33,199 nucleotides of DNA from an uncultured Oscillospiraceae bacterium. GTDB taxonomy: Bacteria; Bacillota; Clostridia; Oscillospirales; Oscillospiraceae. The DNA lies in NCBI GenBank assembly GCA_949494735.1, contig CATABD010000024.1, positions 1 to 33,199 of the forward strand. Direction: 5' to 3'. The notes beneath the pieces are model-generated. The model was given only the letters and a program-made list of their open reading frames with translations. It made no database searches and was not told where the DNA came from. Positions 2,400 to 25,800 of the stretch are shown here, piece by piece (positions within the stretch are counted from its first letter, which is position 1; every line of letters starts with the position of its first letter). Made by a program: the position numbers and the translations under genes.

Positions 2400-3563
2400 T
2401 TAGGCGGCAGGGGTCAGTGTCAGACCCAGGCCGTTTACCCAACTCTCCACCGTGGAGCGGGATGCGCTGCCGCTGAACCGCTGACCGTCCAGCCAGGTGG
2501 CGGAACCGGCGAGAGAATGAAGGTTCGTGGCGCTGGAGCCGATCCCGCTGCTGCCAGAGGTGCAGAAGGGCACGATGGTCTTACCGCTGAGATCATAACT
2601 CTCCAGGAAGGTGCTGATGATCTTCGGGGCCTGTCCCCACCAGATGGGGTAGCCCAGGAAAATCACATCATACTGCTCCATGTTATCCACGCCGCCGGAA
2701 ATGGCGGGGCGGGCGCTGGCATCGTTCTGCTCCCGATTGGCTCGGCAGTCGGTATTGTAGTTTAGATCAGCGGCGGTGTAGGGCGCTTCCGGTGTGATTT
2801 CATAGAGGTCTGCATCCAGAATGGCGTCCAGGTGGTTTGCAATGCCCTCCGTGTTGTTGGTAGCGGAGAAGTAGGCGATCAGCACCTTGGCCCCCTCGCT
2901 GGGAGCGGGGACAGGCTCGGTGGGTGTAGTGGGCGCAGTCTGCTGGCTTCTGCTATAATTCATCAGAGCGGCGGCAACGTGGGCGCGGGTAGCGTTGCTT
3001 TTCGGGGCAAACACGCCAGCAGACGCAGGAGCCACAATATTGTTGACGCTGGCCCAATCCACAGCAACGGCAGCGTAGGAAGCAATTTCGGCTTCATCAT
3101 TGTAGTTGCTGGCCCCGTCAGCCGTAGGACTGCCAGCATAACGCCAGAAGATCGTTGTCATCTGCTCCCGGCTGACAGGATCGTTAGGGCCAAACAGCCC
3201 GCCGCCGTAGCCGCTGATGAGATTCTGCTGAGACACCCACAGTACGGCGTCGCTGTACCATGCGCCGTCAGGCGTATCGGTAAAAGCGTCTGTACCTGTC
3301 ACAGCCGGGGTCCCTTCGATTCGGTAGAGGACGGTTGCGAACTGCGCCCTGGTCAGGCTGCTCTCCGGGGCAAACTGGTTGTTGCCGATTCCGGCCATCA
3401 GGTTATGCTCCCGGCAGTACATGACGGCCTCGGCATACCACGCATCGGCATCCACATCGGAAAAGCCGGTATCGTTCACGGCGGCGAAGGCCGGGACAGC
3501 CAGGGAAAACGCCAAAATCAGGGTTAAGAGCAGTGCGCTCAATCGTTTCAGATTTTTCATCAT
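2400..3563 (-). CDS. S-layer-anchored flavodoxin (3 SLH domains + flavodoxin)
   Basis: 387 residues. A signal peptide (ends AVPAFAA) is followed by three SLH domains (about 33-80, 93-140, 152-207; FSDVDADAWYAEAV, FTDTPDGAWYSDAV, and a weaker third copy). SLH domains hold proteins to pyruvylated cell-wall polymer, so this is a surface protein. After a Pro/Thr linker comes a flavodoxin domain (about 228-385) with YFSATNNTEGIA as FMN loop, IFLGYPIWWGQAPK and SGKTIVPFCTSGSS. Flavodoxins are normally cytosolic; here the domain is exported. The flavodoxin part closely resembles that of the lipoprotein at 7755-8441, while the SLH part is almost the same as in the next upstream gene, so the gene looks like a shuffled duplicate. 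AAGGAG lies six bases before ATG 3563; a second ATG follows directly. Confidence 0.88.
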   Translation of the reverse strand: MMKNLKRLSALLLTLILAFSLAVPAFAAVNDTGFSDVDADAWYAEAVMYCREHNLMAGIGNNQFAPESSLTRAQFATVLYRIEGTPAVTGTDAFTDTPDGAWYSDAVLWVSQQNLISGYGGGLFGPNDPVSREQMTTIFWRYAGSPTADGASNYNDEAEIASYAAVAVDWASVNNIVAPASAGVFAPKSNATRAHVAAALMNYSRSQQTAPTTPTEPVPAPSEGAKVLIAYFSATNNTEGIANHLDAILDADLYEITPEAPYTAADLNYNTDCRANREQNDASARPAISGGVDNMEQYDVIFLGYPIWWGQAPKIISTFLESYDLSGKTIVPFCTSGSSGIGSSATNLHSLAGSATWLDGQRFSGSASRSTVESWVNGLGLTLTPAA

Positions 3564-3588
3564 TGTTGTCTCCTTTTTTGTTTTGACT

Positions 3589-5526
3589 TTACTTCAATGA
3601 GGCATCCAACCACGCTTGAATCTCCGCCCGGTCATAGGAAGAATAGCTAACCATCAAGCCCTCTTTAATCACGCTGTTGGGTGCGAGTTTAGAGATCGCG
3701 CTGATGGTCTGACCAAACTGTCCGCCGCCCATGGAGCAGAATGGCACGATGGTCTTTCCGCTGAAATCCTCGCGTGTCAAAAGTGTGCGTACCGATGCAG
3801 GGATGGAGGACCACCAGTTGCAGTAGCCCAGGAGAATGGTGTCATATTGCTCAATATCGGGTACAGCTTTCAGTTCCGGGGTGGCCTCGGCCCGCAGCTC
3901 GTTCAGCGCCTCACCGTACAGCACCGGGCCGTTGCTGCTGGAAGCGTAGGGCGTTGCGCGTTCCAGCCGGAAAATATCCGCACCGCTCATTTCGTGGATG
4001 AGATTTGCCAAGCCCTCAGTATTTCCCGTCTGAGAGAAATAGACGATCAGGGTCCTGCCGGTATTCTGTTCAGCCTGGGCGCTGTAACTGCTCCTGGCCT
4101 GCCCGGTAGAGCTTTCCGCGTTCCGTACCGGACGTACACTGATGCTGTAAAGGGAAACATCTGCGGGGTGTGCGCCCCGGTATGCGGAGCGGATGTGCTT
4201 GGGATGGTCATTCCAGCCGCCGCCCCGGACGATCTTGGCGTTTCCGCTCTCCGGGCCGGTGGGATTGGTGGATGCCTGAGTGTTATAGGCATCGTACCAG
4301 TCCCACACCCACTCGGCGGCGTTGCCGTGCATATTGTATAGACCATAGGCATTGGCGGCATACTGATCCACCGCCACAGTCCTTCTTAAATACGCATCGG
4401 AACCATTGACCCAATTTCCGCTGGCATCGTTGTTGTAGCCGTAGGCGTTGTAGCAGTTGGCATCGCTGTTGTGAACGTAGTCGCCAAAGCTGAAGGGCGT
4501 GGTGGTATTGGCGCGGGCCGCGTACTCCCACTCCGCCTCGGTGGGCAGGCGGTAGCCATTGGCGCTTTTATCCCAAGTCACGGTTGTGCCGGAGACGGTG
4601 TAACAGGGCGTTAGCCCCTCGGCTTCACTGAGCTTGTTGCAGTATTGGATGGCGTCGTACCAAGTGATGTTCGTCACAGGCAGGTTGTCGCCCTTGGTTT
4701 CGCTGGGGTTAGTTCCCATGACTGCCTGATACTCCCTCTGAGAAATTTCCGTTTTCGCCATGTAGAAGCTGCTCACGGTTACGCTATGCTGCGTTTCGTC
4801 AGAACTGCGCTCCGGCTCACTGGCGGGGCTTCCCATCTGGAAAGTGCCGCCATTTATCAGCACAAACTGGTCATTGACAGTCACAGGAGGGACGGGCGTG
4901 GCTCCCGTTTGCTGACGGCTGTAATTCATCAGCGCGGCGGCAACGTGGGCGCGGGTGGCATTGCTTTTCGGGGCAAACACACCAGCAGACGCAGGGACCA
5001 CGATATTGTTGACGCTGGCCCAATCCACAGCGGCGGCGGCGTAGGAGGCAATCGAAGCCTCGTCCGTGTAATCACTGGCCCCGTCAGCCGCAGGACTGCC
5101 CGCATAACGCCAGAAAATCGTTGTCATCTGCTCCCGGCTCACCGGGTCGTTGGGGCCGAACAGACCACCGCCATAGCCGCTGATGAGGTCCTGTTGAGAC
5201 GCCCACAGTACGGCATCGCTGTACCATGCGCCGTCAGGCGTATCCGTGAAAGCGTCCACGCCGGTCACAGCCGGGGTCCCTTCGATCCGGTAGAGGACGG
5301 TTGCGAACTGCGCTCTGGTCAGACTGCTCTCCGGGGCAAACTGATTGTTGCCGATTCCGGCCATCAGGTTATGCTCCCGGCAGTACATGACGGCCTCGGC
5401 GTACCACGCATCGGCGTCCACATCAGAAAAGCCGGTATCGTCCACGGCGGCGAAAACCGGAACAGCTAAAGTGAACGTCAGAGCCAGCGTAAGGAACAGC
5501 GCCCCCAGCCGTTTTAGATTTCTCAT
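3589..5526 (-). CDS. Surface protein: 3 SLH domains + FGE-like domain + flavodoxin
   Basis: 645 residues in three modules. Signal peptide (ends AVPVFAA) and three SLH domains (to about residue 205); FGE-like domain (about 222-480; FVLINGGTFQMGS, RLPTEAEWEYAARA, LYNMHGNAAEWVWDWY, RGGGWNDHPKHIRSAYR); flavodoxin domain (about 497-645; VYFSQTGNTEGLA, ILLGYCNWWSSIP, SGKTIVPFCSMGGG). The two catalytic cysteines of formylglycine-generating enzymes are missing here too. It combines the SLH block of the next gene with the FGE-flavodoxin block of the gene after that, so the three are related by duplication and domain swapping. Start ATG 5526 has AAAGGA nine bases upstream; an in-frame ATG at 5544 has no good site. 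Probably a cell-surface flavoprotein; substrate unknown. Confidence 0.87.
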   Translation of the reverse strand: MRNLKRLGALFLTLALTFTLAVPVFAAVDDTGFSDVDADAWYAEAVMYCREHNLMAGIGNNQFAPESSLTRAQFATVLYRIEGTPAVTGVDAFTDTPDGAWYSDAVLWASQQDLISGYGGGLFGPNDPVSREQMTTIFWRYAGSPAADGASDYTDEASIASYAAAAVDWASVNNIVVPASAGVFAPKSNATRAHVAAALMNYSRQQTGATPVPPVTVNDQFVLINGGTFQMGSPASEPERSSDETQHSVTVSSFYMAKTEISQREYQAVMGTNPSETKGDNLPVTNITWYDAIQYCNKLSEAEGLTPCYTVSGTTVTWDKSANGYRLPTEAEWEYAARANTTTPFSFGDYVHNSDANCYNAYGYNNDASGNWVNGSDAYLRRTVAVDQYAANAYGLYNMHGNAAEWVWDWYDAYNTQASTNPTGPESGNAKIVRGGGWNDHPKHIRSAYRGAHPADVSLYSISVRPVRNAESSTGQARSSYSAQAEQNTGRTLIVYFSQTGNTEGLANLIHEMSGADIFRLERATPYASSSNGPVLYGEALNELRAEATPELKAVPDIEQYDTILLGYCNWWSSIPASVRTLLTREDFSGKTIVPFCSMGGGQFGQTISAISKLAPNSVIKEGLMVSYSSYDRAEIQAWLDASLK

Positions 5527-5547
5527 GTCCTTCGTTCCTTTCATTAC

Positions 5548-6084
5548 TTATTTGAGAGAGAGGCCCAACCGATAGGCTTCCTGCGGAAATCGTGAGCGTT
5601 CAATGTCGGAGCGGGCGCCGCATCCTACCGCCAGCACCCTGCCCGCATCCTCCCACTCCATGTACTTTGCCAGCGTTTCGTAGTGGGTGGTGAGGGCCTG
5701 CATTGTCCAGTCATTCCGGTCATAGGCGGTTGCCAGCAGGAACACCTTTTTGCCGCCTGTCAGAGCATAGGTGCGGGAGTAGAAGCGGTCGATCACCTTC
5801 TTGATCTGCGCGGAAAAGCCGAAGTAGTATAGCGGGGTAACCAGCACCACCGCCTGGGAATCCACCAGATCCGGCAGCAGTTTCCCCATGGCGTCCTTCT
5901 GCACACAGGGAGCCGAACCCATTCCGCAGCGGCCGCAGCCCAGGCAAGGGCCGAAGTCCTCAAATGCGGCGTCAAAGCGGAAGGTTTCCCATCCTGCCTC
6001 CTGTGCGCCCCGGATAAACTCGTCTGCCAGCAGAGCGGAAGTGCCTTTTTTATGGGGACTTCCGGTGATAATGGTTGCTTTCAT
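5548..6084 (-). CDS. NAD(P)H-dependent FMN reductase, iron-sulfur flavoprotein-like
   Basis: 178 residues, no signal peptide, so cytosolic. The N-terminus ATIITGSPHKKGTSALL is the FMN phosphate loop of the NADPH-dependent FMN reductase / flavodoxin_2 family, and LVTPLYYFGFSAQIK is the second flavin-contacting loop. A compact cysteine cluster, CLGCGRCGMGSAPC (about residues 48-61), matches the spacing of [4Fe-4S] binding in iron-sulfur flavoproteins, although a structural or redox-switch role is possible. It may pass electrons from a nicotinamide or ferredoxin to flavin. The second ATG (6084) was chosen because AAGGAGG is six bases before it; the first ATG (6090) directly abuts that site. It sits 12 bases upstream of the tautomerase gene's end and is part of the flavodoxin operon. 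Confidence 0.82.
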   Translation of the reverse strand: MKATIITGSPHKKGTSALLADEFIRGAQEAGWETFRFDAAFEDFGPCLGCGRCGMGSAPCVQKDAMGKLLPDLVDSQAVVLVTPLYYFGFSAQIKKVIDRFYSRTYALTGGKKVFLLATAYDRNDWTMQALTTHYETLAKYMEWEDAGRVLAVGCGARSDIERSRFPQEAYRLGLSLK

Positions 6085-6095
6085 ATCCATCCTCC

Positions 6096-6305
6096 TTAAA
6101 TGCCGGGTTTCACAAACATGATCTCATCCGGGAACTGCTCCATGGACTTGGCCCACTCGTCCTTGGGAATGTCCTGGATGGACACGGAGATGAACTTAGG
6201 GTCGATTCCCAGCTCCTGCATCAGAAACGCTTGGGTTTTCAGCGCAAGGGCCTGCTTTGTTTCATCATCCCGTCCGGGAATCATCGTAATCGCAACGTGC
6301 GGCAT
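6096..6305 (-). CDS. 4-oxalocrotonate tautomerase-like protein
   Basis: 69 residues, the normal size of 4-oxalocrotonate tautomerase subunits. It starts MPHVAITMIPGR; after removal of the initiator Met, Pro becomes residue 1, the catalytic base of this superfamily. ELGIDPKFISVSIQDIPKDEW corresponds to the conserved strand and loop of the small tautomerases. These enzymes interconvert keto and enol forms of small unsaturated acids, usually as hexamers or dimers. The physiological substrate is unknown. Its place in the operon, with an aldo/keto reductase and flavin reductases, suggests work on a conjugated carbonyl compound, but that is inference. Confidence 0.8.
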   Translation of the reverse strand: MPHVAITMIPGRDDETKQALALKTQAFLMQELGIDPKFISVSIQDIPKDEWAKSMEQFPDEIMFVKPGI

Positions 6306-6323
6306 CGTAATCTTCCTCCTTTA

Positions 6324-7067
6324 TCAAATATCCAAATCCAATCCCGCGATCCACTCCTGCACAGCAGGGCGGGAAGAATCTACATCCGGGCGATAGACAC
6401 CGATAGGGTCAAGAATGGTCACATCATCGGGGAGGGCAGCGGTCAAATCCCGGATGGTACTGGAAAGCCCGCCCGTTCCGTGGGTGCAGAAGGGAATGAT
6501 GGTTTTCCCGGAAAAATCGTACTCATCCACAAAACTGAGGACCGCCATGGGCAGAGTGTACCACCAATTCGGAAAACCGATGAATACGGTGTCGTAGTCC
6601 TCCATATTGTCAACATGATTGACCAGCGCGGGGCGGGCATTGTCCGCTTTTTCATCTGCCGCCCGGTCCAGACACTCGTCATAGTCACTGGAATACGGGT
6701 CCTCTACAACGATGGAGAACAGATCACCGCCGACCTCCTGCTGAATCCAACCGGCGATCTTTGCAGCATTTCCGGGGGGCAAGACGCTGGCCGAGGTAGT
6801 GGCGTCCACGTCCACGGCGCTTGGGTCCTCCACGATGGTGTTATCCGCCCAGGTGAAATAGGCGATCAGGATGCGGGGTATTTTCGATTCTTGCGCATCT
6901 GTCGAATCATGTGCCGAAGAAACAGGCGATTCCGGCTGGACAACAGGCGGTTGGCTGGCATCGCCTGGTGCTTCACTATCTGCTCCGGGCTGATCCACTG
7001 TCCCGTTGCATCCTGCCGTTGTTATCAGAATAGCAATGGAGAGCAAGATTGCAATCCATTTTTTCAT
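6324..7067 (-). CDS. Flavodoxin-domain lipoprotein
   Basis: 247 residues. The lipobox TTAGC (Cys about 20) and the hydrophobic leader mark a lipoprotein on the outer membrane face. A Ser/Pro-rich linker leads to a flavodoxin-like domain (about 68-247): ILIAYFTWADNTIVED, then GFPNWWYTLPMAVLSF and SGKTIIPFCTHGTGG. The FMN loop is followed by a long insertion ending in LPPGNAAKIAG, a form seen in one branch of flavodoxin_4 proteins. The start ATG overlaps the end of the DUF4405 gene by four bases, so translation of the two is coupled. Together with that membrane protein it forms the clearest candidate pair for electron transfer from the membrane to an outside flavin carrier. Confidence 0.87.
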   Translation of the reverse strand: MKKWIAILLSIAILITTAGCNGTVDQPGADSEAPGDASQPPVVQPESPVSSAHDSTDAQESKIPRILIAYFTWADNTIVEDPSAVDVDATTSASVLPPGNAAKIAGWIQQEVGGDLFSIVVEDPYSSDYDECLDRAADEKADNARPALVNHVDNMEDYDTVFIGFPNWWYTLPMAVLSFVDEYDFSGKTIIPFCTHGTGGLSSTIRDLTAALPDDVTILDPIGVYRPDVDSSRPAVQEWIAGLDLDI

Positions 7068-7762
7068 AGTGTGTTCCTCCCTTTACGCCTCCGCAACAGC
7101 TTTGTTCCGTAGTAGGCCAGGAAAATAAATGTACCCATGATGGCCAAATAATCCAGGTAAAACAGAACTTTGGATTCGCTGAAATCGAGGAAAACAAATT
7201 CCGACCGCAAAAATAGATAGGTCGTTAAATCGCGCTTGACCATCGCAGCCACACCATAGACAGCGATCAGTGCGGCAATCCACGCCGGCAAGGGGAGGTT
7301 AGCTCTACCGGAGAGCTTCGTTTTTCCTGCTTTCCGGGCCATTCCCAGCAGCATCCCCCAATGCAGGCCCAGGTGCGCCGCCATCAGAAGGAAACCCCAA
7401 TAGGATGCCGCCATGTGCAGCCTGCGGGCAAAGGCCATGTGTCCTCTGATATGAAGGAAGGCAAACACCTTGCTGGAGAGGATCACGCCGCTGGCCATCA
7501 GGCCCACCATCGCCGCCAGGGTAAGCAAGTCGATCACCGTTTGCAGGACGCGGGCGGCGGTGTATTTTCCCTTGAAAAGCCCCGTCCACCAGCGCCAGTT
7601 GAGGATATGGTGGAGAATGAACAGGAGGAACAGCCCCGCGCCCACCCACTCATGGGCGGTGTCGCCCCACAGGTGGTAGCCCATCTGGAACAGCAGGCCC
7701 AATGTCATAGCAGCGTCTACGCAGATCTTCGCAATTTGTTTTGGCTTCATAAAATCATCCAT
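7064..7762 (-). CDS. DUF4405 membrane protein, probable b-type cytochrome
   Basis: 232 residues, with about five or six predicted membrane segments. It contains many histidines in or next to the segments (MGYHLWGDTAHEW, FILHHILNWRWW, IRGHMAFARRLHMAA, AAHLGLHWGM). That pattern is that of the DUF4405 family, which resembles four-helix cytochrome b membrane subunits; heme binding is inferred from the paired histidines. The gene overlaps both neighbours: its ATG 7762 lies inside the end of the upstream lipoprotein gene (ATGGATGA) and its stop overlaps the start of the next. The tight coupling with two flavodoxin lipoproteins suggests it moves electrons across the membrane to them. An alternative start is ATG 7750. 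Confidence 0.83.
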   Translation of the reverse strand: MDDFMKPKQIAKICVDAAMTLGLLFQMGYHLWGDTAHEWVGAGLFLLFILHHILNWRWWTGLFKGKYTAARVLQTVIDLLTLAAMVGLMASGVILSSKVFAFLHIRGHMAFARRLHMAASYWGFLLMAAHLGLHWGMLLGMARKAGKTKLSGRANLPLPAWIAALIAVYGVAAMVKRDLTTYLFLRSEFVFLDFSESKVLFYLDYLAIMGTFIFLAYYGTKLLRRRKGRNTL

Positions 7763-8441
7763 TCAAATCCAGACCATCCACCCAGGACTGCACATCGGAG
7801 ACAGATGCTCCACCGCTGAACCGCTGGCCCTCCAGCCAAGTTACATCCTCTGTCAGCTCCTGGAGCATTGTGGCGCTGGACCCCAAGGGGCTGCTGGCGG
7901 AGGTGCAGAAGGGAGCAATGGTTTTCCCGCTGAGATCATAGCTCTCCAAGAAGGTATTGATAATTCTGGGAGCCTCGCCCCACCAAATGGGGTAGCCTAG
8001 GAAAATCACGTCATACTGCTCCATGTTATCCACGCTGCCGGAAATGGCGGGGCGGGCGCTGGGATCGTCCATCTCCTGGCTGGAACGGCTGGAAGAATCG
8101 TTGTAGTTCAGGTCATCGGAGGTGTAAGGCTGTTCCGGTACAATCTCGTAAAGGTCGGCGTCCAGAATATCGTTCAAGTGATTGGCAATGCCCTCCGTGT
8201 TGTTGGTAGCGGAGAAATAGGCAATCAGGATTTTCTTTCCACTGTCATCCGTTTCCGTAGGCGTCTCACCATCTGTCGAAGGGGTATCTTCCGGCTGGCT
8301 CTCCGGGGGAGTTTCCGGTGTTGTGGAAGCGGGGGTATTCTCTTCCGGCGCGGGAGTGCTGCCCTGTCCGGGCGCAGACCCGCAGGCGGTTAGGACGAAC
8401 ACCAGCGCCAGAGTTAAAAAGAGAGAAAACGTTCTTTTCAT
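7755..8441 (-). CDS. Flavodoxin-domain lipoprotein
   Basis: 228 residues. Lipobox LTACG (Cys about 19), then a low-complexity linker rich in Pro, Thr and Glu of about 45 residues, then a flavodoxin domain (about 70-228): KILIAYFSATNNTEGIA, IFLGYPIWWGEAPR, SGKTIAPFCTSASS. The linker is long enough to hold the flavin domain away from the membrane. Its flavodoxin domain is close to that of the SLH-flavodoxin at 2400-3563, pointing to duplication and re-anchoring. ATG 8441 was chosen because AAGGAGG lies eight bases before it and the signal peptide begins there. The stop overlaps the DUF4405 start. Confidence 0.88.
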   Translation of the reverse strand: MKRTFSLFLTLALVFVLTACGSAPGQGSTPAPEENTPASTTPETPPESQPEDTPSTDGETPTETDDSGKKILIAYFSATNNTEGIANHLNDILDADLYEIVPEQPYTSDDLNYNDSSSRSSQEMDDPSARPAISGSVDNMEQYDVIFLGYPIWWGEAPRIINTFLESYDLSGKTIAPFCTSASSPLGSSATMLQELTEDVTWLEGQRFSGGASVSDVQSWVDGLDLNG

Positions 8442-16255: not shown

Positions 16256-16471
16256 ATTCAAAAGTGGGCCGAGACGGGAGCTCCCATATACAGCAAGCTG
16301 CTGATCCTTTCTCGCTATCTTGGACATTCATCCATCAGCTCGACGCAGTATTATCTTCGTTTGACCGCACAGGCATTTCCCCATATTAGGGATGTTTGTG
16401 AGAAAGAATTGGGCGGTATGTATGCTCCTTTCAGCCTCGCCATGGAAAGTGAGGGATTGCAGGATGGCTAA
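16256..16471 (+). pseudogene. Tyrosine recombinase, C-terminal fragment
   Basis: About 70 residues: KWAETGAPIYSKLLILSRYL, GHSSISSTQYYLRLTAQAFP, then VCEKELGGMYAPFS and a stop at 16471. This is the end of a tyrosine recombinase, with the GHxS box and the catalytic Tyr in STQYYLRL. The N-terminal part with the catalytic Arg and Lys is gone; a blurred trace of the HxxR region may remain just upstream in a shifted frame. The stop overlaps the start of the next recombinase (ATGGCTAA), as in multi-recombinase operons. Confidence 0.75.
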
Positions 16472-17504
16472 ACGTGGTCCCACTTCTTTTGCCAAGGCTT
16501 TATCAAGATATTTCTTTGACTATTTACCAACAGAAAGGGGACTGAGCGAGGAAACAATTCAATCCTATCGGGATGCAATTTCACTGCTGCTGGATTTCTG
16601 TGAAAAGGAACGCCATATTCGAAGGGATCAGCTGGAAGTTAATGACTTGACTCGGGAATTGGTTGAGTCTTTTCTCCGATGGCTGGAACAGGAAAAGGGG
16701 AATTCTATCTCGACGAGGAATCAGCGACGTGCAGCTATCAATGCGTTCGCTAAATTTTTACAGTATGAAGATCCGAGTTGTGTGTTGCTGTGCCAACAGA
16801 TTCGGGAAATTTCCCCAAAGAAGTGCGAACAAAGGATGATCCCACATCTTTCTATGGAGGCAGTTCAAGCTATTTTTCAACAACCCAATCTTTCAACGCG
16901 GGGAGGGCGGCGCGATTTTGCTTTTTTAAGTTTGATTTATGAATCCGCAGCCCGTGCCTCTGAAATTGCAGGTATCCGTGTTGGCGACATTCGCTTTGAG
17001 AAAAAGGGGGCGATTGTACATTTAAGAGGCAAAGGCAAGAAGTTTCGTGATGTACCACTCCTTTCAGATCCTGCTAAAATCTTGAAAAACTATTTGTCCG
17101 AGGAATCCCGATACCGCCGATGTGATATGAATGCCCCATTTTTCTGCAACAGGAGCAAAGAACCCCTGACACGGGGTGGTGTTTATTACATTGTGCAAAA
17201 ATATGTTGCCCTTGCGCAGCAAAAGACGCCAGAGTTGTTTCCGGTACAAGTGCATCCCCATGTTTTTAGACACAGCAAGGCAATGCACTGGCTGGAAGCC
17301 GGCGTAGATTTGCAGTACATCAAAGACTTACTCGGCCATTCTGATATTAAAACCACTGAGGTCTATGCGCGCCTGAACATCACAATGAAGCAGAAGCTGC
17401 TGGAAGAAGTCCACCCTCAACAGTCTGCAGGACAGCAGCCTTCATGGACTGACGATGATAATTTGATGCAATGGCTGAACAAGTTCTATATTCCAACCGA
17501 ATAA
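16464..17504 (+). CDS. Tyrosine recombinase (XerC/D-like integrase)
   Basis: 346 residues. An N-terminal SAM-like core-binding domain (about 15-110; FFDYLPTERGLSEETIQSYR) precedes the catalytic domain. The catalytic residues are visible: Arg in YESAARASEIAGIRV, Lys in RGKGKKFRDVPL, His/Arg in HPHVFRHSKAMHW, His in LLGHSDIKTTE, Tyr in VYARLN. ATG 16464 was chosen because family members begin MAKRGPTSF and the codon overlaps the stop of the recombinase before it; an in-frame ATG at 16392 lies inside that gene. Two or three overlapping recombinases are typical of 'recombinase in trio' elements; here only one is complete. Confidence 0.9.
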   Translation: MAKRGPTSFAKALSRYFFDYLPTERGLSEETIQSYRDAISLLLDFCEKERHIRRDQLEVNDLTRELVESFLRWLEQEKGNSISTRNQRRAAINAFAKFLQYEDPSCVLLCQQIREISPKKCEQRMIPHLSMEAVQAIFQQPNLSTRGGRRDFAFLSLIYESAARASEIAGIRVGDIRFEKKGAIVHLRGKGKKFRDVPLLSDPAKILKNYLSEESRYRRCDMNAPFFCNRSKEPLTRGGVYYIVQKYVALAQQKTPELFPVQVHPHVFRHSKAMHWLEAGVDLQYIKDLLGHSDIKTTEVYARLNITMKQKLLEEVHPQQSAGQQPSWTDDDNLMQWLNKFYIPTE

Positions 17505-19087: not shown

Positions 19088-19709
19088 TTAGCTCAACACT
19101 GGGGTCTCGCCCAGAGAAGGGCGCGTGTGTTCCTTATCGCGGATTTTGGAGGACTCACCGCCCCGCAAATATTATTTGAGCCGGAAAGCCTGCCTGGGTA
19201 TCCTGCGCCGAGCCCGTGAGCGGGGCAAGCCCCTGCCGCCCTAGCTGGAGATGGCGCTGAAGGCCCAGGCGGGGCTGACGGTATACCTTGTGCCGCTTCC
19301 AAAGATTGAGGCAGAAACAACCTCTACGGCGGACTGCCTGAACCCCTGGGACACCCAACAGACCCGTGTCTTTACGCCCGAGGGCACCGCGCCCACCCTG
19401 GCTGGCGCCGATGGCTGCGGCGGGCGGAATCCCGGCGGGCTGGTGTTTGACGCCGATGCTGCTGGGGATGGCGCCTGTCTCACCCCGTGGGACACCCAGC
19501 AGACCCGGATCACCACACCGGGGGGCGTGTCCCCCACCATCAACAGCGGCGAGGCCAAACCGGGCGGGCTGGTCTTCGCCGCTGGCTTCTGTGCCGGGGC
19601 AGGGCCGTCCGCGGGAAGCATTGGCTACCACGAGGAGGTGGCCCCAACTCTGAACGGATCTGCCAGTGGAAATATGATGCCATCAGTTCTCTGTATGAAC
19701 AGGCAAGAT

Positions 19710-19820
19710 GGGGCCCCCACGCAAACCCAGCGAAGCGGTTTGCGTGGGGAAAGAAGGAGCAGCGAAATGAGTGAGCCCTCGCCGTTAGGCGGGGGCGAAG
19801 GATATGGAGCTTGCGACGAC
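19710..19820 (+). repeat. 111-base palindromic element, copy A (in frame)
   Basis: Begins GGGGCCCCCACGCAAACCCA and ends GCTTGCGACGAC, exactly 37 codons long, so the host reading frame continues through it (GAPTQTQRSGLRG...YGACDD). A perfect 13-base stem, CCCCACGCAAACC / GGTTTGCGTGGGG (19715-19749), encloses the loop CAGCGAAGC. A second hairpin, CCCTCGCC-GTTA-GGCGGGGG, follows. The host protein reads MMPSVLC on both sides of the insertion, so a short host stretch appears duplicated or the repeats of the target region bracket it. Confidence 0.88.
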
Positions 19821-20273
19821 GCTATGATGCCGTCTGTGCTGTGCCTCAACGACCAGGGCGGCAGCGTCATGGAGTGTTCGGAGGATGTCTCGGGGACATT
19901 GCGCGCCCAGGAGCATGGGCACCAACCTCTCGTGTTTGAAAACCATGGGATCGATGCGAGATATACCGGCCCCCATAAAGTTGCGCCCACCCTGTCTGCC
20001 AGGGCTGGCACAGGCGGAAACAACCTCCCGTTAGTGGCCCAAGAGGAGCCGCAGGTGTTCTGCATCACGGGGAACGCCATCGACCGCCAGCCGGAGAACG
20101 GCGGAAATGGCCTCGGCATACAGGAGGACGTGGCCTATACCCTGACCGCCACCGACCACCACGCCGTATTTTCCCGTCAGCGGGTGGATCTGTTCCACGA
20201 GGGTGATGTGGCTTCCACCCGGAGCGCCAGACAGTACAAGGATGCCACCGACCTCGTGTACCAGGGGTTTATA

Positions 20274-20384
20274 GGGGCCCCCACGCAAACCCAGCGAAGC
20301 GGTTTGCGTGGGGAGAGGAGGAGCAGCGAAATGAGCGAGCCCTCGACGCAAGGCGGGGGCGAGGGATATGGAGCTTGCGACGAC
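20274..20384 (+). repeat. 111-base palindromic element, copy B (in frame)
   Basis: Same length and orientation as copy A, with about seven to nine base differences, none in the first stem. The frame again continues (GAPTQTQRSGLRG, then EPSTQGGGEGYGACDDDGP). The second hairpin has changed its loop to GCAA. It is 453 bases downstream of copy A in the same gene. Confidence 0.88.
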
Positions 20385-20756
20385 GATGGACCGCTCACTG
20401 CCAGCGACAGCAAAGGCCCCAACGCCCAGTACGTCTCGCAGGATAAGCTGATCGTAGAAGGGCCGTTGCTGATTCGCCGCCTAACCCCCCGGGAATGCGA
20501 ACGTTTACAGGGCTACCCCGATGGTTGGACCGCCCTGCCCGGCGCGGCGGACTCGCCCAGATACCGTGCCCTGGGCAACTCAGTCGCCATCCCGTGTGTG
20601 GAATATTTGATGCACGGGATGGCCTTAGTCCTCCGGGCTGGCTAACTGTTGGTATTGCTTCGTTTTCACCAAAATCTTCGTTGCTTATGGTGAATAGCTT
20701 TATTGCCCGGTTGTGGGTATACTTGCCCTTACCAAGCACGGAAAGAGGATCACATA

Positions 20757-22608: not shown

Positions 22609-23943
22609 GAAAATACAGAAGAAGAAACCTGCGCCCAAGCCTGCCGCCGTCCCGCGTCCCAAGGATTTTCTGGACATGGTGGCTCCTTCGGCGGTGAAGT
22701 TCAACACGGACTGCTCCATCATCGGCGGGGCGTACCACGCCTTCCTGTCCCTGCGGGGCTATGCCGCCTCCACCGAGGAGCTGGCTCTGCTCAGCCGCCT
22801 GGGGGCCAAGGACGGGGTGAACCTCTCCCTCTACGCCCGGCAGGTCACCGCCGCCGAGGAAAAGCAGATCATCCAGAACGCCAGCAACAAAAACCGCCTG
22901 ACCCGGTCCAACACCAACGACCTCCAGCAGTCCGTGGCGGCGGAGAGCGACCTCCAGGACGTGGCCGCCCTGGTCACCCAGATGCACCGCAGCCGGGAGC
23001 CCCTGATCCACTGCGCGGTGTTTATCGACATCAGCGCCCCGGATATGGCGAAGCTGTCCACCCTGAAGGATTTTGTCACCGCCGAGCTGGCCCGCTCCAA
23101 GATCACCCCTGATCCCCTTCTGCTGCGCCAGCGGGAGGGCTTCCAGGCCGCCAACCCCGCGGGCTTCAACGCCTTCGGCCCCCAGTTTGAACGGGTGCTG
23201 CCAGCCGGGTCGGTGGCGAACCTGTACTTCTTCAACTACTCCGGCAAGACCGACCCCCTGGGCTTCTACGTGGGCCGGGACCGCTACGGCTCCAACGTCA
23301 TCGTGGATCTGGACCGCCGCGCCGAGGACAAGACCACCGCCAGCGTCCTGATTTTGGGCAATTCCGGTCAGGGCAAGAGCTACCTGCTGAAGTTGCTGCT
23401 CTGCAACATCCTGGAGAGCGGGAAATCCGCGATTTGTTTGGATCCTGAACATGAGCTGACCGACCTGTGCGCCAACCTGGGCGGCTGCTTCGTGGACTTG
23501 ATGGACGGGCGGTACCGTATCAATCCGCTGGAGCCCAAGGCGTGGGATGTAGGGGCCCCCATCGAAGCCCAGCGAAGCGGGTTCGATGGGGAGAGGAGCC
23601 GCAGCGGAATGAGCAAGCTCCCCCGCCGTCAGGCGGGAGTGAGGGATATGAAGCTTGCGGCGACGATGAGGATGATGAAGCGCCGGAAACGTTCCGCCAG
23701 CGGACGCTATTGAGCCAGCACATCAGCTTTTTGAAGGATTTCTTCCGCGCCTACAAGAATTTCTCCGACGCCCACATCGATACCATTGAGCTGATGCTGG
23801 GGCGGCTGTACGCCAAGTGGGGCATGGACGACTCCACCGACTTCGCCGCCCTGTCCCCCGGCCAGTTCCCCATCCTCTCCGACCTCTACGACGTGATCGA
23901 GGAGGCATACGAGGGGTACGGGGACGAGGCCAGCCCCCTCTAG
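22601..23943 (+). pseudogene. VirB4/TrsE-like conjugation ATPase, broken by element copy C
   Basis: The N-terminal part (about 315 residues from ATG 22601) is a VirB4-type ATPase: Walker A in LILGNSGQGKSYLLKLLLCN, and ICLDPEHELTDLCANLGGCF then INPLEPKAWD. At 23552 the 113-base copy C of the palindromic element enters; because its length is not a multiple of three, the frame shifts and stops at 23713. The natural continuation is found in another frame from 23662 (DDEDDEAPETFRQRTLLSQH, FLKDFFRAYKNFSDAHID) up to a stop at 23943, after which the C-terminal half with Walker B is missing. VirB4 ATPases power type IV secretion, so this element can hardly transfer by itself. Its start overlaps the previous gene by eight bases. 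Confidence 0.82.
23552..23664 (+). repeat. Palindromic element, copy C (113 bases, frameshifting)
   Basis: Aligns over its whole length with copies A and B but is two bases longer. The stem sequence is different (CCCCATCGAAGCC / GGGTTCGATGGGG, 23557-23591) yet still pairs, with a single G-G mismatch, while the loop CAGCGAAGC is unchanged. The second hairpin (CCCGCC-GTCA-GGCGGG) is kept as well. Conserved pairing with changed bases points to selection on structure. Confidence 0.85.
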
Positions 23944-24600: not shown

Positions 24601-25800
24601 GTGAGCGAAAAGCGACGTGACAGCAAGAACCGCATTCTTCGCAGCGGAGAGAGCCAACGCAAAGGCGGACGATATGCGTACAAATACATCGACGCCACAG
24701 GCAAGCCCCAGTTTGTTTACAGTTGGAAGCTGGAAGCCACAGACAGCACGCCCCAGGGCAAACGGGACGGGCTTTCCCTGCGGGAAAAGGAGAAGCAAAT
24801 CCGGCGGGACATTGAGGATGCCATTATTCCCCGCGGCGGAGAGATGACCGTTCTGGATTTGGTGAAAAAGTACCTCTCCCAGAAAACCGGCGTCCGGCAC
24901 AACACAGAAGCCAACTATAACTTTGTCCTCAATATCATCAAGAAAGAGGACTTCGGGAGACAGCGCATTGACCGGGTGAAGCTGTCCGACGCCAAACGCT
25001 GGCTGATTAAGTTGCAGCAGGACGGCAGGGGGTACAGCTCCATCCACTCCATTCGGGGCGTTGTCCGGCCTGCGTTTCAGATGGCTGTGGACGATGATTT
25101 GATACGCAAAAATCCGTTTGAGTTTCAGCTTGCCACCGTTGTTGTCAACGACAGCGTGACAAGGGAAGCGATCACAAGGAAACAGGAACGGGCATTTCTG
25201 GAATTTGTAAAGGGTGACAAGCACTTTTCCCGGTACTATGACGGCATCTATATCCTGTTCAAGACGGGGCTTCGTATCTCGGAGTTTGTAGGGCTGACCC
25301 TGGCTGACCTGGACATGAAGAACCGCAAAATCAGCGTCAACCACCAACTTCAGCGGAAGCGGAACATGGAGTACATCATTGAAGACACAAAAACCGCCAG
25401 CGGGTCACGGGAAATCCCTATGACGGACGATGTGTACCAGTGTTTCCAGCGCATTATCGCCAGCAGGCCGAAGCCCAAAACCGAGCCGATGATCGGCGGA
25501 AGGTGCGGCTTTCTGTATTTGGATAAAGGCGGCAAGCCGATGGTAGCGCTTCACTGGGAGCATTACTTCAAGCACATCTGCCAGAAGTATAACAGCATCT
25601 ACAAGGTGCAGATGCCCAAAGTCACCCCGCACGTTTGCAGGCACACATTCTGTTCCAACATGGCAAAGAGCGGTATGAACCCCAAGACGCTGCAATACCT
25701 CATGGGCCACTCGGATATTGGCGTCACGCTGAACACCTACACCCATCTGGGCTTCGAGGACGCGCAGGCGGAGCTGAAACGGGTCGCCAGCGGCGGGTAG
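24601..25800 (+). CDS. int: Tn916/Tn1549-family integrase (tyrosine recombinase)
   Basis: 399 residues, the family's usual length. An N-terminal AT-rich-DNA-binding domain (about 1-75; KNRILRSGESQRKGGRYAYK) is followed by the core-binding domain and the catalytic domain. Catalytic residues: Arg in FKTGLRISEFVGL, Lys in EDTKTASGSREIP, His/Arg in TPHVCRHTFCSNM, His in LMGHSDIGVTL, Tyr in NTYTHLG. The start is GTG 24601 with AAAGGAG seven bases upstream. With xis it forms the recombination module at one end of the integrative element; the element boundary should lie shortly after the stop. Confidence 0.95.
   Translation: MSEKRRDSKNRILRSGESQRKGGRYAYKYIDATGKPQFVYSWKLEATDSTPQGKRDGLSLREKEKQIRRDIEDAIIPRGGEMTVLDLVKKYLSQKTGVRHNTEANYNFVLNIIKKEDFGRQRIDRVKLSDAKRWLIKLQQDGRGYSSIHSIRGVVRPAFQMAVDDDLIRKNPFEFQLATVVVNDSVTREAITRKQERAFLEFVKGDKHFSRYYDGIYILFKTGLRISEFVGLTLADLDMKNRKISVNHQLQRKRNMEYIIEDTKTASGSREIPMTDDVYQCFQRIIASRPKPKTEPMIGGRCGFLYLDKGGKPMVALHWEHYFKHICQKYNSIYKVQMPKVTPHVCRHTFCSNMAKSGMNPKTLQYLMGHSDIGVTLNTYTHLGFEDAQAELKRVASGG

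Follow-up and report, generated by a model that had tools for sequence, protein, structure and literature searches.

A dispersed family of small, one-strand-folded elements in Clostridia, probably mobile, with two in-frame copies in a methyltransferase gene

We identified three copies (A, B and C) of a small hairpin-forming element in a 33,199-nt stretch of DNA from an uncultured Oscillospiraceae bacterium (the whole stretch analysed, hereafter the window). The combined evidence makes it reasonably probable that these copies belong to a dispersed, non-autonomous family of mobile elements of Clostridia that would act as a folded strand, depend on an enzyme provided in trans and insert at two nicks. 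The element codes for no transposase, as an earlier note on this DNA had recognised, and it must therefore be mobilised in trans if it moves.

Copies in the window and their host genes

As the earlier note had described, copies A and B lie in the same orientation and reading frame within one methyltransferase gene (Table 1); they share 94% identity over 112 nt. Copy C is an addition to the two copies that the note had listed. Both add the peptide GAPTQTQRSGLRGERRSSEMSEPS...GACDD, and the frame is kept through both. The exact 111-nt, 37-codon coding unit that was claimed there is not supported, since the covariance-model ends of copies A–C give a unit of 113–115 nt and lengths across the family range from about 102 to 129 nt and more, between a 5′ end GGGGYCCC... 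and a 3′ end ...GACGACGA. Downstream of copy C, reading seems to go on in another frame (ORF 23467–23943). The covariance model found no fourth copy in the window at E ≤ 0.1.

Table 1 Positions of the element copies, the host gene of copies A and B, and the duplicated target at site A (window coordinates).
Feature	Position	Strand	Remarks
Element copy A	19710..19822	+	Full length, in frame in methyltransferase ORF; covariance model 128.7 bits
Element copy B	20274..20386	+	Full length, same frame as copy A; covariance model 122 bits
Element copy C	23552..23666	+	In TraG/HerA-like ATPase gene; BLAST, Pfam, covariance model
Host ORF, C-terminal part of C5-cytosine DNA methyltransferase-like protein	19251..20645	+	Pfam DNA_methylase, 270–319 of 324
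Left copy of duplicated target, site A	19673..19700	+	28 nt aligned, encodes MMPSVLCMN; score 14.7
Right copy of duplicated target, site A	19823..19850	+	Directly after element; encodes MMPSVLCLN, same as empty homologues

The methyltransferase frame has a stop codon at 19242–19244, where homologues (e.g., L219–L223) keep an open frame, so that copies A and B may lie downstream of a break in the gene. Two tyrosine integrases (16392–17504 and 24601–25800, of which the latter carries a DNA-binding domain of the Tn916 type) flank the methyltransferase and ATPase genes, and the window copies thus probably ride on an integrative element. Elsewhere in the window (2420–8230), large direct repeats among minus-strand genes (300 nt at 87%, 244 nt at 80% and 128 nt at 82% identity) look like a duplicated gene family.

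Empty sites and target duplications

Twelve of 25 listed methyltransferase loci, i.e., the window's own and 11 others, were aligned. Of the 11 homologues, one (L220, genome G022) carries the element at site A as the window does, and ten lack it; nine of these are plainly empty and read GNMMPSVLCLNDQGG without interruption, and L222 carries a different segment. Site B is occupied in the window only and is empty in all ten homologues that have the region, which L227 lacks. Compared with an empty homologue, the protein is longer by 50 residues at site A, where a second MMPSVLC stretch adds to the 37 residues contributed by the element, and by about 38 at site B. Phage record MT838034.1 matches the joined, element-free query in one piece over 97% coverage at 78% identity. 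These empty sites, together with the dispersal of the family, bear out the view of a foreign in-frame insert and contradict the alternative that the earlier note had named as its refutation, a normal domain in every homologue. At site A the target is doubled, with MMPSVLC on both sides of the element in differing codons, at a score below the cut of 16 used in the count that follows; no target duplication is visible at site B.

For that count we used 210 distinct full copies with flanks, scoring as a duplication any direct repeat with a score ≥16 whose right copy starts 0–6 nt after the element. Such repeats occurred at 35 of the 210 copies, compared with 0.6 expected from swapped flanks. Seven were set aside by eye (L126, L270, two in L161 and L136 (tandem copies), L211, which consists of two similar tRNAs, and L047, a simple repeat). 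In all 28 retained cases the right repeat begins 0–1 nt after the element, while 0–55 extra bases separate the left repeat from it, and aligned lengths range from 24 to 103 nt (over-extended in L060 and L082). Recent-looking duplications measure 103 nt (98% identity, L049), 91 nt (99%, L268) and 81 nt (99%, L191). Since L049, L060 and L082 come from genomes of named strains (isolates), their duplications are not metagenome misassemblies. The other 182 copies, copy B included, show no duplication at this cut, so that a second mode of insertion or a loss of repeats is possible. A target duplication, for which the earlier note had proposed to look, is thus present, though a long and variable one.

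Overall, the direct repeats have the appearance of target duplications that are long and vary in length, and most of them involve the 3′ end of a same-strand gene. Across 30 duplications (the 28 plus L001 and L030), a same-strand gene ends 0–77 nt before the element in 26; in the remaining four, such a gene runs past the element start in three and there is no such gene in one. From inspection by eye, we take the genes with duplicated ends to include those for phosphoglycerate kinase, enolase, ketol-acid reductoisomerase, GroEL, aspartyl-tRNA synthetase and a ComM-like protein. Two successive insertions are seen at one gene end in L268 (1416–1723), the newer with the 91-nt duplication at 99% identity and the older with one at 78%.

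The two copies of a duplicated target differ in an unexpected way. In the 30 duplications, 102, 29 and 19 mismatches fall on codon positions 3, 1 and 2, respectively, and 92 of the differing codons are synonymous and 30 non-synonymous. A right copy that lost its coding role on insertion would be expected to drift at all codon positions, so simple duplication does not explain the mainly synonymous differences. In L030, the gene-side copy of the phosphoglycerate kinase gene (pgk) end is recoded almost throughout and the gene just upstream has its usual codons; L178 and L217 show a similar pattern. In contrast to the impression given by these three loci, any general tendency of the left copy towards AT is weak (45 vs. 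28, p 0.06, 28 duplications). A search of 394 genomes of the order, allowing up to three mismatches, revealed no donor of the L030 pgk tail. Ideas that could account for the pattern are a left copy imported from another lineage, a retention bias against identical repeats, and recombination between lineages; exchange between lineages after insertion is our guess. The region 3′ of pgk is a hot spot (L171, L178, L184, L185 and L189) with several unlike hairpin inserts, among them a variant ending in GCGGACTTTGCGACGACG and a longer unrelated one, and with a doubled pgk end; the window's genome has only a 3′-end footprint there.

Conservation of a fold on one strand

From 5′ to 3′, the element consists of GGGGY, a 5′ hairpin, GGAGGAGCAGC, an inner hairpin and the closing strand GCTTGCGACGACGA; the stems of both hairpins vary between copies. 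Instead of the single palindrome described in the earlier note, the predicted fold has two domains, the 5′ hairpin plus an imperfect helix of greater length, and the terminal pairs of this helix form the 3′ end of the element. The two ends, GGGGYCCCC and GCTTGCGACGACGA, are not complementary, i.e., there is no terminal inverted repeat. On the opposite strand the 3′ end reads TCGTCGTC, which contains CGTC, yet this stretch is paired in the plus-strand fold.

None of 200 dinucleotide shuffles folds as strongly as copy A (z −4.5). In an alignment made from sequence alone, without structure, 24 of 30 consensus pairs are altered on both sides; doubly changed cells number 163, compared with 41 (sd 5) in shuffles, and 96.7% of cells are paired, compared with 36–49% when the partners are slid. 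Wobble cells comprise 103 G.T and 10 A.C, in each of the 32 members the given strand yields a better fold than the complementary one, and columns 56–57 with 121–122 form tandem G.A/G.A in 20 of the 32 and Watson-Crick pairs in 11 of the other 12. Given this covariation, the G.U wobbles and the swaps between G.A and Watson-Crick pairs, the working form is probably RNA (or one DNA strand), and such a pattern marks a structure that functions on a single strand, for which RNA is the simplest form. Conservation resides in the folded strand and not in the peptide. We rejected a reading of the element as protein-coding because its length modulo 3 is not kept (classes of 60, 50 and 36 among 146 copies) and most copies are intergenic.

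Distribution of the family

A search of the genome and its relatives for the hairpin, as the earlier note had advised, uncovered a dispersed family. BLAST with copy A gives 15 matches in the window's own genome, in which a covariance model (built from 32 diverse members; 113 positions) detects 47 copies at E ≤ 1e-4. BLAST of copy A gave matches in 29 of 36 relatives of the same genus and in 0 of 23 genomes of other families. By the covariance model, six same-genus relatives hold 28–53 copies and G003 holds two, and G012, G025 and G013, of the same genus, have none. More widely, the model matched 76 of 392 genomes and 50 of 219 genera in a Clostridia sample, with only nine candidates scored per genome, and eight of 398 genomes in a phylum sample, four of the eight lying outside the class with 1–2 copies each.

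Twenty-one conserved bases from the 3′ end, used as a pattern, match at least 119 stretches of the genome collection, including named Pseudoflavonifractor, Flavonifractor and Anaerotruncus strains, and also seven viral contigs; copy A had no blastn match among phage or plasmid records. Copies are present in five single-contig genomes (G494, G561, G565, G626 and G672), and matches truncated at the 3′ end as well as at the 5′ end occur. In two genomes of another family (G601 and G726; L376–L391) the element forms the centre of a longer repeat that has been amplified; in G601, ~130 shared bases to its left belong to this longer repeat, and in G726 the element is nested in another palindromic repeat.

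The window has no gathering-level match in Rfam, and a permissive Rfam search near elements returned only chance-level matches plus an unrelated tmRNA in L372. Our literature search found no description of the element; most subscription journals were outside its reach, and this result is therefore not proof of novelty.

Genomic position

Gene context was called with a home-made dicodon gene finder, not a standard caller, which replaced a codon-bias scan that was too weak. Only 34 of the 210 copies lie inside predicted genes (24 sense, 10 antisense), compared with 72% of random points. By contrast with about 4.7% of random points, 60 copies lie ≤120 nt behind a same-strand gene, and 27 lie behind an opposite-strand gene (about 5% of random points).

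The copies within genes include one in a TadA-like deaminase gene, occupied in three of 30 relatives (L316 in G028, L317 in G060 and L339 in G021) and empty in 27, where the insert sits between CLS/CLT and VPVGCVIV. The best NCBIfam match of this protein is tRNA adenosine(34) deaminase TadA, below the cut-off both with and without the insert. Another copy lies within the Topoisom_bac match of a topoisomerase in the window's genome (L009), and one within the MobL match of a relaxase (L096).

At 11 of 14 loci picked by eye (L061, L062, L064, L074, L088, L121, L130, L140, L146, L148 and L152), the 3′ end of the element, or of its 3′ part, abuts the tRNA/tmRNA 3′ end on the opposite strand without a gap; read from the tRNA strand, the element resembles a terminator in many loci, with a hairpin followed by T's. 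Copies also lie between adjacent phage genes (L354, L360, L352 and L433), the same HK97-type capsid gene adjoins copies in three genomes of two families, and one copy immediately precedes a DUF2800 gene in a genome that does not belong to the class.

Proposed mode of movement and alternative explanations

No mobilising enzyme was found; neither Y1 transposases nor reverse transcriptases (RVT_1) track copy number in the genus. Y1_Tnp matches occur in 16 of 42 genus genomes but not in G000, G022, G060, G002 and G015, each with 33–53 copies, although several of these assemblies are incomplete; the most matches were found in G012 (10) and G025 (12), both without the element. RVT_1 is present in 25 of 42 genus genomes, with none in G019 (40 copies, 96% completeness) and four matches in the element-free G012. 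Among 21 reverse-transcriptase loci, a copy accompanies only two, neither placed as the gene's own end. Because old copies may outlive their enzyme and assemblies are incomplete, these data weaken, rather than refute, the links to Y1 and RVT_1.

The explanation that we favour envisages a working form that is a folded strand, either an RNA copy or single-stranded DNA, with the enzyme supplied in trans. Insertion at two nicks ~25–100 nt apart would leave long direct target repeats in part of the insertions, the 3′ junction being precise and the 5′ one less so; a long, variable duplication combined with such a 3′ junction would be expected if the nicks were far apart and priming started from the element's 3′ terminus. 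Insertions would be tolerated mostly behind same-strand stop codons, a position in which duplication of the gene end may preserve the gene, and occasionally inside genes where frame and stops permit, copies A and B presumably being such passengers. Phages and conjugative-type elements may transport copies between families. Evidence that sits less well with this explanation comprises the 182 copies lacking a duplication, the truncated matches, the larger repeats in G601 and G726, the mainly synonymous differences between duplicated targets and the negative search for an enzyme. A bolder version, which we consider rather doubtful, would make the family a bacterial counterpart of SINEs: a gene-less structured RNA inserted by target-primed reverse transcription from its base-paired 3′ end at nicks 25–100 nt apart, and spread behind transcribed genes of Clostridia and phages.

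Several other explanations were weighed against this one. The element could instead be a useful cis-acting RNA (a 3′ end stabiliser, a processing site or a tRNA terminator) that is spread by recombination and kept by selection rather than selfish. Such a role would suit the strong fold conservation on one strand, the sense bias behind genes (60 vs. 27), the tight fit between phage genes and the abutment on tRNA/tmRNA 3′ ends in 11 of the 14 eye-picked loci, but it is hard to reconcile with 20–60 copies in some genomes and zero in three of the genus, with copies in coding regions in both orientations, or with scattered, non-orthologous sites and target duplications, and we judge it unlikely. 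We are still more sceptical of a REP/IS200-type miniature element, whose hairpin DNA a Y1 transposase (of the RAYT or IS200/IS605 type) from elsewhere in the genome would move. Y1 elements are known to insert without target duplication, whereas duplications are seen here, and Y1_Tnp is missing from the five copy-rich genomes, several of them incomplete, and present in the element-free G012 and G025. In favour of a Y1 mechanism are the hairpins near both ends of the element and the other-strand 3′ end TCGTCGTC, which recalls CGTC-tagged repeats, including two Rickettsia RPE families (PMC3733652).

Two further explanations appear highly improbable. An ordinary repeat within the methyltransferase protein family would agree with the two in-frame copies and with the variable repeated middles that this family does show, but it is refuted by the empty sites at A and B, and the same DNA recurs both in intergenic regions and in unrelated genes. 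Chimeric assembly of metagenome bins might yield repeats and odd flanks, given that the window's genome is a draft in 214 contigs and that many of the fetched records are MAGs; this is scarcely credible in view of the same anatomy and duplications in the strain genomes (L049, L060 and L082) and the copies in single-contig genomes.

Relation to known elements and significance

Our favoured explanation, a mobile family acting as a folded strand, invites comparison with known small elements. SINE-type retroposons, which occur in eukaryotes, are, to our knowledge, not known in bacteria. The Clostridia element resembles them in its structured, RNA-like body, precise 3′ and looser 5′ junctions and variable target duplications, and differs in that no reverse transcriptase partner was found and that there is no tail repeat. 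The target duplications of MITEs are short, and those seen here are variable and 24–103 nt long; the Clostridia element also lacks the terminal inverted repeat and TA ends of MITEs. It is nevertheless similarly small and non-autonomous and adds in-frame peptides, as bacterial MITEs (ERIC, RUP and Correia/NEMIS) can do (PMC2229807). With GTAG- and CGTC-tagged REP/BIME/REPIN sequences, which are associated with RAYT, it shares dispersed hairpins and a CGTC-like end, but REPs measure 20–40 bp, whereas this element has 113 nt, two domains and a base-paired CGTC-like end, and, in assemblies that are partly incomplete, no link to Y1 transposases. CGTC-tagged repeats likewise lack a known transposase, and a word search of that source for Firmicutes and Clostridi- returned no mention (PMC3733652).

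In behaviour the element resembles the Rickettsia palindromic elements (RPE), to which the earlier note had likened it. RPE and the Wolbachia WPE are ~100–150 bp, hairpin-forming, multi-copy and found both between genes and in frame in conserved protein genes (PMC2229807, PMC10969869), and RPEs have terminal inverted repeats of ~12 bp, their target duplication being given as a question mark in a table (PMC2229807). The Clostridia element likewise falls in the ~105–146 bp range, forms hairpins, occurs in many copies and lies in frame in conserved genes (TadA-like, topoisomerase, relaxase and methyltransferase). Unlike RPEs, it occurs in another bacterial class and lacks a 12-bp terminal inverted repeat, and it has long target duplications, strand-specific RNA-like covariation and most of its copies outside genes. 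We read it as working like Rickettsia palindromic elements with a different anatomy.

Selfish, palindrome-like inserts in bacterial proteins are accordingly not peculiar to Rickettsiales, and such an insert can occupy even a TadA-like tRNA-editing gene. A compact, strongly covarying RNA-like fold is spread across many genera of gut Clostridia and is absent from Rfam. Target duplications of such length and variability set the element apart from familiar small bacterial elements and make its mechanism directly testable. If movement is RNA-mediated, the family would represent a new way in which DNA moves in bacteria.
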